Source: Methanobrevibacter olleyae
Lineage (GTDB): Archaea > Methanobacteriota > Methanobacteria > Methanobacteriales > Methanobacteriaceae
Reading direction: 5' to 3'
DNA length: 40,822 nucleotides
Assembly (NCBI RefSeq): GCF_900114585.1
Contig: NZ_FOTL01000020.1
Location: forward strand, 1-40,822
The position numbers and the translations under genes were made by a program. Numbering within the stretch: the first letter of the stretch is position 1; every line of letters starts with the position of its first letter. Below, one piece after another: positions 36,475 through 40,822 of this stretch. Below the pieces are notes generated by a model. The model searched no databases, was not told the DNA's origin, and worked only from the letters and a program-made list of their open reading frames with translations.

Positions 36475-37281
36475 TTATTTATTTCCAAAATCTTCCCAGA
36501 ACTGTGTTTGGAAAACACTATTTTTACTTAAATCTTCTAATTTTAAGAATAAATTCCAAGAAACAGATAAATTCATATATTCATCTGGAATTAAGCCTCT
36601 CATATGAGCTCTTGCTGCAAAATCAATTGGACTTAAAACAGGAACAGGATTATCATTTTCAGCTTGCCCGAAAGTAAATACTCCAATCGCTTGACATGCA
36701 GATGCTTGTGGAGTTAAAACATGAGCACTTTCAACTCTAAAGGAACTATTTAGCTGCAACATTGCAGATAATTCCATAGTATTTAAAGTAAAAACAACAG
36801 AATCTGGAATTTCATCATCATTAAGTGCTTCAATTGGTTTAAAAACAATATATTCCCCTTCATCATAGAATGGCCTATTTTGAATATTTTCATATGCAGT
36901 TTCATAATCGGAAAAGATTCTCTCACCTTCTAAAAACATGTTTTTTGTATGTTCCGGCATCTTTTCCAATCTATTTAAAAAGTAATCTCTATCCTTTGCA
37001 GAGTCTAATCCTAAAGATAAAAAAGTAGCTTGAAATTCTTTATCTTTTTCTTCTTTAAATCCAGTACCCCAACCAAAGCCTGCTGAAACACCACCACAAG
37101 TGATATTTTCACGACCAAAAGCAGTTATTTTTCTTTTTGCAATGGTTTGTGCAACAAAGGACATCACACATCCTCCTCGACCTGCTTTAGGAGCTAATGC
37201 ATCTTTAGGCTTTTCATCAGTTTTAATTAATACAATAGGATCAAACTGTCCATTTAGCTCTTTTACAATATTAAATTCCAT
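36475..37281 (-). CDS. DUF169 family protein
   Basis: A 268-residue cytoplasmic protein of the DUF169 family, common in methanogens and anaerobes. Its recognisable blocks are PIVLIKTDEKP near the N-terminus, GRGGCVMSFVAQTIAKRKI with a conserved Cys, TCGGVSAGFGWG with another, and the C-terminal half with LNTMELSAMLQLNSSF and TPQASACQAIGVFTFG. Conserved Cys and Gly stretches hint at a cofactor or metal, but no function is established. RBS GGGG upstream of ATG 37281. It is divergent from the macrodomain gene, with a 291-bp promoter region between them. Confidence 0.75.
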   Translation of the reverse strand: MEFNIVKELNGQFDPIVLIKTDEKPKDALAPKAGRGGCVMSFVAQTIAKRKITAFGRENITCGGVSAGFGWGTGFKEEKDKEFQATFLSLGLDSAKDRDYFLNRLEKMPEHTKNMFLEGERIFSDYETAYENIQNRPFYDEGEYIVFKPIEALNDDEIPDSVVFTLNTMELSAMLQLNSSFRVESAHVLTPQASACQAIGVFTFGQAENDNPVPVLSPIDFAARAHMRGLIPDEYMNLSVSWNLFLKLEDLSKNSVFQTQFWEDFGNK

Positions 37282-37584
37282 TTCTACAACCCCAATTTTA
37301 AAAAAAATACTAAAAAATATAATTTATATTTAATTTAATTAATTTATATTTTATAAAAAAGTATATAAAGATTTTACTATTAAAAAGCCAAATAAGGATT
37401 ATTAATCGAATTAAGTTTTGAGATAAATATAATAGATAAAAAAGCTAATTAAAAATAACAATATAGGGTTTAAAGATAATTATTAGAATAATTATTAGAT
37501 AGTTAGCTAAAAGTTACAAAAAAGATTTATATCTAACTAATAATAATTAATTATAAGAGAAATTTAAAGTTAATGAGGTGGATT
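37282..37584. other. Divergent promoter region between the DUF169 and macrodomain genes
   Basis: About 300 bp of AT-rich sequence. TATA-like elements are AAAGATTTATATC (about 37523) facing the macrodomain gene and a TTTATATTTTATAAAAAAG stretch (about 37343) that could serve the DUF169 gene. No small gene was recognised. Confidence 0.45.
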
Positions 37585-38403
37585 ATGAATAAATTTGATA
37601 AAAATATTGAAATCGATTTTCTTATAAAGGAATTAATTTCTCTTAGTGGAAGATTAGAGAAAGAAATGAAAATTCCTAACGATTATAATGAAAAAAGAAA
37701 ATTACTTAGAGCTTTAATGAATACTCAAAGTCCAGTTCAATTAAGTGAGAAATTTTATGAAATTCAAGATAAAATTCTTAGTGAAGAGACTGAAGAGAAA
37801 GATTTAGCCTCTGGTGAAGATATAAAAACAATTAGTCAAAATCCTAATGAAATAGATTCAAAAATAGCTTTATGGCAGGGAGATATAACTTGCCTTCAAG
37901 TAGATGCAATTGTAAATGCAGCAAACAGTCAAATGTTAGGTTGTTTTATCCCTTTACATAATTGTATTGACAATCAAATTCATTCAGCAGCTGGATTTCA
38001 GTTAAGAATGGATTGCCATGATATTATGAAAAAACAAGGCCATGAAGAAGAGATTGGTAATGCTAAAATCACATCAGCTTACAATTTACCTTCAAAATAT
38101 GTCATACATACTGTAGGGCCTGCAATAGCTTATGGATCAGAACCTAATGAAAAAGAGATTGAAAAACTTGAAAGCTCTTATAAATCCTGCTTAGAAATTG
38201 CAGATAGATACAAGTTAAAATCAATTGCTTTTTGTTCAATATCAACAGGCGTATTTAATTTCCCAAAAGACCAAGCTTCCAAATTAGCTATTAAAACTGT
38301 AAGAGATTATTTAAAAAATAATCCAAATACAAATCTTGAAAAAGTAATTTTTAATACCTTTTCAGATGAAGCTAGCGAGATTTATAGAAAAAACTTAGAA
38401 TAA
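37585..38403 (+). CDS. Zinc-type macrodomain protein (ADP-ribose hydrolase candidate)
   Basis: I start it at ATG 37585 because GAGGTGG is just upstream; the in-frame ATG at 37573 overlaps that site. It is 272 residues long. Residues 1-90 form a helical N-terminal domain (LIKELISLSGRLEKEMKIP...). Residues about 93-272 form a macrodomain: ALWQGDITCLQVDAIVNAAN with NAAN at 111-114, and STGVFNFP at 220-227. MLGCFIPLHNCIDNQIHSAAG places Cys120, His125 and Cys127 where zinc-dependent macrodomains coordinate a metal. Zn-macrodomains remove ADP-ribose from proteins and are typically encoded beside class M sirtuins. Two such sirtuin genes follow on the same strand 125 and 1198 bases later, supporting the call. 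Confidence 0.88.
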   Translation: MNKFDKNIEIDFLIKELISLSGRLEKEMKIPNDYNEKRKLLRALMNTQSPVQLSEKFYEIQDKILSEETEEKDLASGEDIKTISQNPNEIDSKIALWQGDITCLQVDAIVNAANSQMLGCFIPLHNCIDNQIHSAAGFQLRMDCHDIMKKQGHEEEIGNAKITSAYNLPSKYVIHTVGPAIAYGSEPNEKEIEKLESSYKSCLEIADRYKLKSIAFCSISTGVFNFPKDQASKLAIKTVRDYLKNNPNTNLEKVIFNTFSDEASEIYRKNLE

Positions 38404-38528
38404 AGATAATAAATAAAAAAATAATCTAAAATAATGGGAAAAATTAAAATAGAGAATATATAATCTTAAAAAGAATAATTTAAAAGATTATAAAAAATTA
38501 AATGAAATTCATAGAAGGTAAGTATCTC

Positions 38529-39431
38529 ATGGAAAACTATAATATAAGAGTAGAAAAATTAAAAAAACTAATTGATAATGCGAATTATATCTTAATAGGA
38601 GCAGGTGCAGGATTATCAACTGCAGCAGGAATTGAATACTCTGGAAAACGTTTTAGAGATAATTTTCCAGAATTTATTAAAAAATATGGATTTCAAGATA
38701 TGTATTCCTCAATGTTTTATCCTTTTAAAAGCTCAGAAGAGAAATGGGCTTATTTTGCAAAGCATGCCTATGTAAATAATATAGGGATGGAAGGAACCTA
38801 TCTTTATAAAAAATTATTAAACCTTGTAAAAAATAAAGATTACTTTGTTATTACAACAAATACTGATGATCAATTCTTAAAGTCAGGATTTGATGAAAAT
38901 AGATTCTTTAGAGTACAAGGATCATATGCTAAAATGCAATGCTCAAAAGCTTGCCATGAAAAGTTATATGATGATGAGGAATTAATCTTAGAAATGATTG
39001 AAAAAACTGATGAAAATCTAAAAATACCAACTGAGCTTCTCCCAAAATGTCCAGTTTGCAGTGAAGAAATGGATTTAAACCTTAGAAAAGATAGTTTCTT
39101 TGTTGAAGATGATAGCTGGCACAAACAAAAACAGAATTATATCAATTTTAGAAAAAAAGCACTAGGTGGAAAGTTAGTTCTTTTAGAATTTGGAATAGGT
39201 TTTAACACACCAATTATAATCCGTTTCCCATTTGATGATTTAATGAAATCCCATGAAAATGTAAGTCTTGTAAGATTTAATAGGAGTCATTTAGAATTAA
39301 CCGTTCAAGACAATGGAAATTATTATTTAATAGGAGAAGATGAACTAGAAAATTATTTAAATCCCAATATAAAGGAAAGATACCTTCCATTTAATGAGGA
39401 TATTACTAAAACATTAAACAAATTAATTTAA
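38529..39431 (+). CDS. Class M-like sirtuin (probable protein ADP-ribosyltransferase)
   Basis: A 300-residue SIR2-family protein. GAGAGLSTAAG at residues 24-34 is the NAD-binding loop. TTNTDDQF at 109-116 corresponds to the TQNID region with Asn111 and Asp113. The usual catalytic His in HG is replaced by Gln130 (FRVQGSYAKMQC), the change typical of class M (SirTM) sirtuins that transfer ADP-ribose rather than deacetylate. A zinc-ribbon is present at Cys138, Cys142, Cys174 and Cys177. I use ATG 38529 (AAGGT nine bases upstream), not the upstream 38502 without a site. The upstream gene is a Zn-macrodomain, the classic partner. The GcvH-like and lipoate-ligase targets known from bacterial SirTM operons are absent here. 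Confidence 0.85.
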   Translation: MENYNIRVEKLKKLIDNANYILIGAGAGLSTAAGIEYSGKRFRDNFPEFIKKYGFQDMYSSMFYPFKSSEEKWAYFAKHAYVNNIGMEGTYLYKKLLNLVKNKDYFVITTNTDDQFLKSGFDENRFFRVQGSYAKMQCSKACHEKLYDDEELILEMIEKTDENLKIPTELLPKCPVCSEEMDLNLRKDSFFVEDDSWHKQKQNYINFRKKALGGKLVLLEFGIGFNTPIIIRFPFDDLMKSHENVSLVRFNRSHLELTVQDNGNYYLIGEDELENYLNPNIKERYLPFNEDITKTLNKLI

Positions 39432-39469
39432 GTTTTTATTTACCTAAATATATATTAAAATGAAAAATT

Positions 39470-39561
39470 TTAAAATGCTTAAAATTCAAATTTATTATAT
39501 AAATTAAAATTTTAAAATGATTAAAATTCAATTTATTGTATAAATTAAAATTTTAAAAAAA
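39470..39561. repeat. Imperfect direct repeat between the sirtuin genes
   Basis: AAAATTTTAAAATG(C/A)TTAAAATTCAA(A)TTTATT(A/G)TATAAATT recurs at about 39465 and 39510, with a further partial AAATTTTAAAA. Period is about 50. It fills most of the 170 bp between the two sirtuin genes. Confidence 0.7.
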
Positions 39562-39601
39562 ATATAACATTAAAATTTTTTATTGAAATAAGGTAGATTT
39601 T

Positions 39602-40465
39602 ATGGATGAATTATCAAAAAAAATACAAGATCTTAAAAATTTAATTGAAAATACAGACCACATTTTAATTGCTGGAGGAGAATATCTATCAGAACAAGCA
39701 GGACTTGACATATATGGAAAAATGTTTACAGATAACTTTCAAGACTTTATAGAAAGATATGATTTTACAAATATGTATAATGGAACGTTTTACCCTTATA
39801 AATATAGTGAAGAAAAATGGGCTTATCTAGCAAGATATTTTTATGTTTATCTGCATTTTGAAGGAACAAGACTATATAAAAAAATTTACAAACTAGTTGA
39901 AGATAAAGATTATTTCGTAATAACAACTAATTTTGATGAGCAATTTTATAAAACAGGATTTAAAAAATCAAGAGTCTATGCAAGTAATGGTGATTTTAGA
40001 CACTTGCAGTGCAAAAAAATATGCAGTGATGAATTATACGATTTTGTAGAATTAATCGAAAGAATGGTTAAGCAGACAGATTATGAAAGGAAAATTCCTC
40101 GACAATTAGTACCTAAATGTCCTAAATGTGGAGCTTCAATGGATTTACATCTGACTACAACGGATAATTTTATTAAAGACCCTAACTGGATAAAGCAACA
40201 TGAAAAATATGGAAGATTCACAAATAAAAATAAAGACTCAAAAACTTTAGTTTTACAATTTGGAAATCCGAAAACATTTGAAAAAACAATTATGGAAAAT
40301 CCTAAATGGCATTTAGTACGATTTATTGAATCAAAAGGAAGGCTTGAAAATATTGGTTCTTCCATATTTAAATCATTTAGAAAAAATAATGAAGCTTTAG
40401 AAAGAATAATCACTTTTGAAGAACCTATAGAAGAAATAATTGATCAATTACTGAAAAAATATTAA
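39602..40465 (+). CDS. Degenerate sirtuin-like paralogue
   Basis: A 287-residue homologue of the preceding sirtuin, similar along its whole length (NFQDFIERYDFTNMYNGTFYPYKYSEEKWAYLAR against the first). The zinc Cys pairs are kept (Cys137, Cys141, Cys173, Cys176). However, the NAD loop GAGAGLSTAAG is replaced by AGGEYLSEQAG (24-34), and the residue equivalent to the catalytic Gln/His is Asn129 (YASNGDF). TTNFDEQF at 108-115 keeps the Asn and Asp. It may be a non-catalytic partner, a decoy, or an enzyme with a changed substrate. ATG 39602 follows AAGGTA. The two genes are likely co-transcribed with the macrodomain gene. Confidence 0.8.
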   Translation: MDELSKKIQDLKNLIENTDHILIAGGEYLSEQAGLDIYGKMFTDNFQDFIERYDFTNMYNGTFYPYKYSEEKWAYLARYFYVYLHFEGTRLYKKIYKLVEDKDYFVITTNFDEQFYKTGFKKSRVYASNGDFRHLQCKKICSDELYDFVELIERMVKQTDYERKIPRQLVPKCPKCGASMDLHLTTTDNFIKDPNWIKQHEKYGRFTNKNKDSKTLVLQFGNPKTFEKTIMENPKWHLVRFIESKGRLENIGSSIFKSFRKNNEALERIITFEEPIEEIIDQLLKKY

Positions 40466-40497
40466 ATTTATTTAAATAAAAGCATTTAAAATAAATT

Positions 40498-40822
40498 TTA
40501 GGGTCCTAGATTTTTTACATTTCTGCAAGCTTTTGTAGGGCTGTTTTTGTAGTGTAGCCTTGTAATGTGATGAGCCCTGCTAAAAATACATTTAAATATA
40601 CGGTTCTTTTTACTGAATCATGTGTATATTTGTGTATATTCTCTCATGTTGAGTCCATCTTTGCATAATTTGAAGAAGTCTTCTATTTTACCCCTTATTG
40701 GTTTATATTTTTCCCAATTGTTTATTTTTTCTAAAAATTCGTTTTTTAGTCTTTTTAATAGTTTTTTAATCTTTTCTGTGTTCTTTTTTGGGTTAAATAT
40801 CTCTAATTTGTAGTTGAATATT
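40498..40822 (-). mobile_element. IS element, right part of the window, cut by the window edge
   Basis: The end TTAGGGTCCTAGATTTTTTA at 40498 matches the ends of the decayed IS at 890-1865, and starts 33 bases after the second sirtuin stop. The rest of the element runs off the right edge. Confidence 0.6.
40515..40822 (-). pseudogene. IS4-like transposase C-terminal part, frameshifted
   Basis: Read leftward from the window edge: FNYKLEIFNPKKNTEKI..., then WEKYKPIRGKIEDFFKL, which fits the Y-R-E-K C-terminal signature (Tyr, Arg four later, Glu four later, Lys seven later), then KDGLNMRE. At about 40638 one extra base shifts the frame. In the other frame it continues HKYTHDSVKRTVYLNVF and ends ALQKLAEM with stop at 40515-40517. 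Homologous to the remnant at 1071-1835. The shift lies next to a perfect 10-base direct repeat TGTGTATATT TGTGTATATT (40621-40640). Confidence 0.75.

Follow-up and report, generated by a model that had tools for sequence, protein, structure and literature searches.

A predicted class M sirtuin pseudoenzyme, apparently retained by selection, adjoins the SirTM/Zn-Macro pair of Methanobrevibacter olleyae

We found that a minimal gene pair for predicted reversible mono-ADP-ribosylation in Methanobrevibacter olleyae is followed by a third gene, Sir-B, which encodes a degenerate class M sirtuin. The writer/eraser pair, SirTM-A and Zn-Macro, belongs to a type that is already published and Sir-B is the new part. 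As judged from its sequence, Sir-B is a pseudoenzyme retained by selection. Its most probable role is to bind SirTM-A and to control or direct it, an explanation of the locus to which we give an even chance of being right.

The DNA analysed here (the window, 40,822 nt) is one complete contig of a 2.12 Mb genome assembled in 49 contigs. Three open reading frames lie on the + strand near the contig end, at 37573-38403, 38502-39431 and 39602-40465. An earlier note on this DNA had described a macrodomain gene followed on the same strand by two SIR2-family genes, and this arrangement was confirmed, with homology far beyond chance. Ribosome-binding-like sequences favour internal starts for the first two genes, at 37585 for Zn-Macro (AGGTGGATTATG) and at 38529 for SirTM-A (AGAAGGT...ATG). 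With these starts, the residue numbers given in the note (Cys120/His125/Cys127 and Gln130) are correct. The features of the locus are:

36475..37281, - strand: divergent DUF169 (COG2043) gene, PF02596 at 6.6e-27
37585..38403, + strand: Zn-Macro, MacroD-type zinc macrodomain, predicted protein-ADP-ribose hydrolase; frame open from ATG 37573
38529..39431, + strand: SirTM-A (SirA), class M sirtuin, predicted protein ADP-ribosyltransferase; frame open from ATG 38502
39446..39529, no strand: AT-rich direct repeat of two 42-nt units, 81% identical, within the 170 nt that separate SirTM-A from Sir-B
39602..40465, + strand: Sir-B (SirB), predicted class M sirtuin pseudoenzyme, from homology, residue losses, conservation in four genomes and dN/dS

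The direct repeat is a possible separate promoter region for Sir-B. Just past Sir-B, at 40466-40822, a frameshifted transposase-like remnant was seen by eye on the minus strand at the contig end. The genome holds a single other SIR2-family match, ordinary-looking, on another contig (C11, 163 bits). No anti-phage defence model matched.

SirTM-A closely resembles characterised class M sirtuins, matching SpySirTM (5A3A) at E=1.3e-54 and Foc1Mfs1 (8RSN) at 1.4e-28. It contains the motifs GAGAG, TTNxD, QG, NLRK and GIGFNTP and the four zinc cysteines. The QG that replaces the catalytic HG of other sirtuins, the equivalents of Asn118 and Arg192, and GVGx[NT]TP, by which class M is defined, are all found, and every class M (SirTM) residue checked is kept. 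The Gln130 picked out in the note lies within the QG motif and corresponds to Spy Gln137, while R186 corresponds to Spy Arg192; the note's reading of this residue thus stands, now with the other diagnostic class M residues. In SpySirTM, mutants of Asn118, Gln137 and Arg192 are nearly inactive and Q137H also abolishes activity (PMC4518038). The AlphaFold2 model of SirTM-A is of moderate confidence (pLDDT 71.4) and its nearest PDB entry is again 5A3A (TM 0.58), in keeping with class M. Close homology to characterised enzymes suggests that SirTM-A is a protein ADP-ribosyltransferase that would write mono-ADP-ribose with NAD.

Sir-B is also homologous to SpySirTM (8.7e-31), yet falls under the Pfam SIR2 cut-off. 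All four copies carry the same changes (SpySirTM numbering): Gln137 is replaced by Asn, giving Asn-Gly, Arg192 by Thr, and GAGAG by GGEY, and the pyrophosphate loop (GxGxNTP / GVGx[NT]TP) is deleted or altered. Asn118 is additionally gone in one copy, and TTNxD is retained in three of the four. The alignment of 52 methanogen class M sirtuins has 54 invariant columns. All four Sir-B copies retain 31 of these, including the fold core and the four zinc cysteines. Another 18 are lost in all four, among them Q130 (Spy Gln137), R186 (Spy Arg192), A27 and G28 of GAGAG, and G224, N226 and T227 of GIGFNTP; the remaining 5 are mixed. By QG, Arg192 and GVGx[NT]TP, Sir-B falls outside class M, and by descent it is nested among the methanogen class M sirtuins. 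The second sirtuin is hence not the class M-like enzyme first supposed but a degenerate paralogue, and the loss of cofactor and catalytic residues in all copies rules it out as a second active SirTM. Even so, the protein may still bind some NAD or use the Asn for another activity. Its AlphaFold2 model (mean pLDDT 40.6) is too low in confidence for use on fold or dimer.

Sir-B occurs in 4 of the 19 genomes of the genus and 4 of the 139 of Methanobacteriaceae, which bears out the suggestion that an extra sirtuin makes the architecture unusual. Wherever present (4/4 genomes) it lies directly downstream of SirTM-A, across a gap of 170-250 nt. It is full-length in each, the window copy being 79-82% identical to the other three, and a ribosome-binding-like sequence near the start is conserved in three of the four. 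In G013/G018, the sole Sir-B pair with unsaturated synonymous sites, dN/dS was 0.068 for Sir-B against 0.079 for SirTM-A. Because the residues are lost, the adjacency is invariant and dN/dS is about 0.07, like that of SirTM-A, Sir-B is best read as a selected pseudoenzyme rather than a decaying copy; dN/dS and the intact reading frames likewise disfavour a pseudogene. In the trees its stem branch is long (about 1.0-1.4 changes per site) and its crown tips short (0.02-0.11), a history of a burst of change followed by constraint. A clade of SirA and SirB was not rejected (p-AU 0.38), and the trees are compatible with either the adjacent SirTM-A or a sister-genus class M sirtuin as the putative source. 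A viral origin was considered and dropped, with no relative of Sir-B found in viral contigs. In several relatives without Sir-B, a MATE transporter gene begins within tens of bases after SirTM-A, and in one genome with Sir-B (G001) it follows Sir-B instead. Sir-B has therefore been cleanly inserted or lost at this position.

The macrodomain protein matches PF01661 (2.1e-37) and the NCBIfam protein-ADP-ribose hydrolase model NF003163 (2.8e-104), and its best PDB match is M. oralis MorMacro (8RSI, 5.9e-87, phmmer). It has the N-terminal 3-helix extension, NAAN, a Cx4HxC zinc loop and the ISTGVF diphosphate loop. The extension, a 3-helix bundle, is recognised by sequence, query residues 12-274 aligning with MorMacro and 31-275 with SauMacro. 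The zinc loop follows NAAN (NAANSQMLGCFIPLHNC, Cys120/His125/Cys127 counted from start 37585) and is present in 53/53 aligned macrodomain proteins, so that the zinc-type assignment in the note, with its metal-site residues, holds. Judged by these matches, the window encodes a Zn-Macro of the type already published for Methanobrevibacter. Its close homology to characterised enzymes suggests that it removes ADP-ribose from protein.

The locus encodes neither GcvH-L nor LplA (lipoate ligase), as the note had said, and the search of the genome also returned neither, so this is not an extended operon encoding both. The genome's one GcvH-type match comes from a biotinyl carrier domain in a pyruvate carboxylase/decarboxylase subunit, and its one LplA-type match is a BirA-like protein next to a carboxylase. 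We do not put the biotinyl domain forward as a SirTM-A target. GcvH-L is the sole known target of class M sirtuins (PMC11490716). MorMacro was unable to demodify S. pyogenes GcvH-L (PMC11490716), suggesting that the methanogen target differs.

SirTM was detected in 75 of 139 Methanobacteriaceae genomes. Zn-Macro is adjacent on the same strand in 57 of the 60 family loci inspected (a script counted 56, and L053 is added because there it had picked up the Sir-B copy), and SirTM-A shares this linkage. Of the other three loci, L063 is cut by a contig edge, L082 yielded no macrodomain and L072 is a lone sirtuin. The linkage is thus conserved family-wide, settling whether the synteny might be due to chance. 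The M. oralis Zn-Macro/SirTM pair has been described as a "minimal operon", with crystal structures of Zn-Macro (Ariza et al. 2024, PMC11490716). The pair itself, which the note had offered as a new candidate module, is therefore already published for Methanobrevibacter. Two further loci were noted. The lone sirtuin (L072 6164-6994, G046) belongs to class M, has no macrodomain and lies, by eye, beside a TMEM175-like membrane-protein gene. A second Zn-Macro/SirTM locus in G001 is nearly identical, flanks included, to that of another genus (L068 compared with L083), through either recent transfer or MAG contamination.

Within the genus, the DUF169 gene is a conserved divergent neighbour of the pair. 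In other genera its neighbours are an HxlR regulator, mostly in divergent orientation, a glutathione peroxidase or a cation-efflux gene. These HxlR regulators resemble the redox regulators RrpB/RrpA, below the NCBIfam cut-off. One at L087 4451-4828, and those at 27 similar loci, are usually divergent and have a conserved N-terminal Cys (CPVDxT), making this HxlR/RrpB-like regulator a candidate redox switch for the pair. The flanking genes agree with the published redox role but are no proof of it. A nicotinamide phosphoribosyltransferase gene directly follows the sirtuins in four Methanobrevibacter genomes (L054 4944-6377, L055 345-1778, L057 59-1480 and L067 6835-7536). In two of these it comes after Sir-B, and in G004 and G017, where no Sir-B was found, after SirTM-A. 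NAMPT_N had no match in the window's genome, indicating that NAD salvage is an optional companion.

Plasmids were searched with SirTM-A as query, and those of Bacillota (Paenibacillus pART37, Mesobacillus, Lactiplantibacillus and Levilactobacillus) were found to carry two adjacent class M-related sirtuins. The first keeps QG, the WVR Arg and MTP; the second has EG and lacks both the Arg and the TP. Cross-genus identity is 58-62% for the first and 60-77% for the second. The Glu-Gly partners form one clade (support 100/99) and retain much of the NAD site. A joint clade with Sir-B was rejected (p-AU 0.0076), so Sir-B is not their orthologue. With common origin rejected, the tandem of an active-type and a degenerate sirtuin therefore recurs. 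In Paenibacillus (L116 1680-6226) and Mesobacillus (L117 3997-9047) the QG and EG sirtuins are accompanied by an HD-domain protein, a nicotinate phosphoribosyltransferase and an isochorismatase-family (nicotinamidase-like) hydrolase; from gene content each of these operons looks like a module that consumes NAD and brings its own salvage genes. On Lactobacillaceae plasmids (L115 6022-8194, L119 4112-6296 and L120 4112-6302) the QG sirtuin overlaps an EG sirtuin-cupin fusion, with TetR regulators nearby, and these QG members are without the zinc cysteines.

In the mechanism we propose, SirTM-A would use NAD to put ADP-ribose on a protein target and Zn-Macro would take it off again. Sir-B would have been born by duplication of a class M sirtuin, quickly lost NAD-dependent catalysis and then been retained as a folded, zinc-bound, non-catalytic protein. 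From its observed homology, residue losses, conservation, selection and invariant adjacency, we infer that Sir-B most likely binds SirTM-A as an allosteric partner or substrate adaptor and so bears on regulation and target; it is less likely to be an ADP-ribosylated target standing in for GcvH-L. Counting against such a partnership are the 170-250 nt gap, the promoter of its own that Sir-B may have, and its absence from most relatives.

That Sir-B could be an in-operon substrate, modified by SirTM-A, reversed by Zn-Macro and replacing GcvH-L, would fit a genome without GcvH-L or LplA, a position directly after the writer that suits a dedicated substrate, and the precedent of extended operons, which encode their own (PMC11490716). 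We consider it unlikely, as the majority of the family's pairs lack both Sir-B and GcvH-L and hence must act on other targets, and no acceptor site is identifiable in Sir-B. It seems similarly improbable that Sir-B is another NAD enzyme, diverged and working through a new active site, such as an NADase or a transferase of altered specificity. The TTNxD of three copies, the salvage gene after Sir-B in two genomes and the NAD site largely retained by the Bacillota EG partners speak for it. However, the pyrophosphate-binding loop, the GAG motif, Gln137 and Arg192 are gone from every copy and Asn118 from one, and nicotinamide phosphoribosyltransferase also follows SirTM-A where no Sir-B was found and is missing from the window's genome.

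We think it very improbable that Sir-B is a functionless, decaying tandem duplicate. Its catalytic residues are gone and its occurrence is patchy (4/19 genomes in the genus), but four full-length copies at 79-82% identity, dN/dS near 0.07 as in SirTM-A and the ribosome-binding-like sequence of three copies all oppose decay. The locus might also be no more than the known SirTM/Zn-Macro stress-response pair, with Sir-B a minor lineage-specific accessory. The pair has indeed been described in M. oralis (PMC11490716) and is widespread in the family (75/139), and the RrpB/HxlR-like regulators and glutathione peroxidase beside it in other genera fit a redox role. We doubt this account as well, since purifying selection on Sir-B and the independent Bacillota parallel suggest a real role. 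Binding and control of SirTM-A by Sir-B thus remains our preferred explanation.

Sir-B is a concrete candidate for the regulatory or targeting subunit, or the missing substrate, of a class M sirtuin. No mention of an inactive partner of class M sirtuins was found in the literature searched. Tentatively, and with rather less confidence than in our explanation of the locus, we propose that a dedicated pseudo-sirtuin subunit can control reversible ADP-ribosylation by class M sirtuins. If true, such control arose at least twice independently, in Methanobrevibacter Sir-B and the Bacillota Glu-Gly partners.

Among known systems, the M. oralis minimal operon (MorMacro 8RSI/8RSJ/8RSK; PMC11490716) is of the same families and the same pair type, also with no GcvH-L or LplA, but the window locus differs in its degenerate downstream sirtuin. 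The extended SirTM operon of S. pyogenes and Staphylococcus aureus (PMC4518038) shares the Gln137/Arg192/Asn118 equivalents and the Zn-Macro eraser, whereas its GcvH-L, LplA, OYE and luciferase-like monooxygenase genes are absent from the window locus. The Bacillota QG + EG tandem likewise sets an active-type class M sirtuin beside a partner without the same Gln, Arg and Thr-Pro. It differs in its separate origin, in having Glu rather than Asn, and in its NAD-salvage genes or cupin fusion; no macrodomain was seen near these tandems in the stretches examined. Vertebrate FAM118A/FAM118B are two sirtuin paralogues that process NAD strongly only when mixed (PMC12700824). They belong to the SIR2_2 subfamily, require both active sites and form head-to-tail filaments, unlike the arrangement proposed here, but they show that NAD processing by one sirtuin can be under the control of its paralogue.
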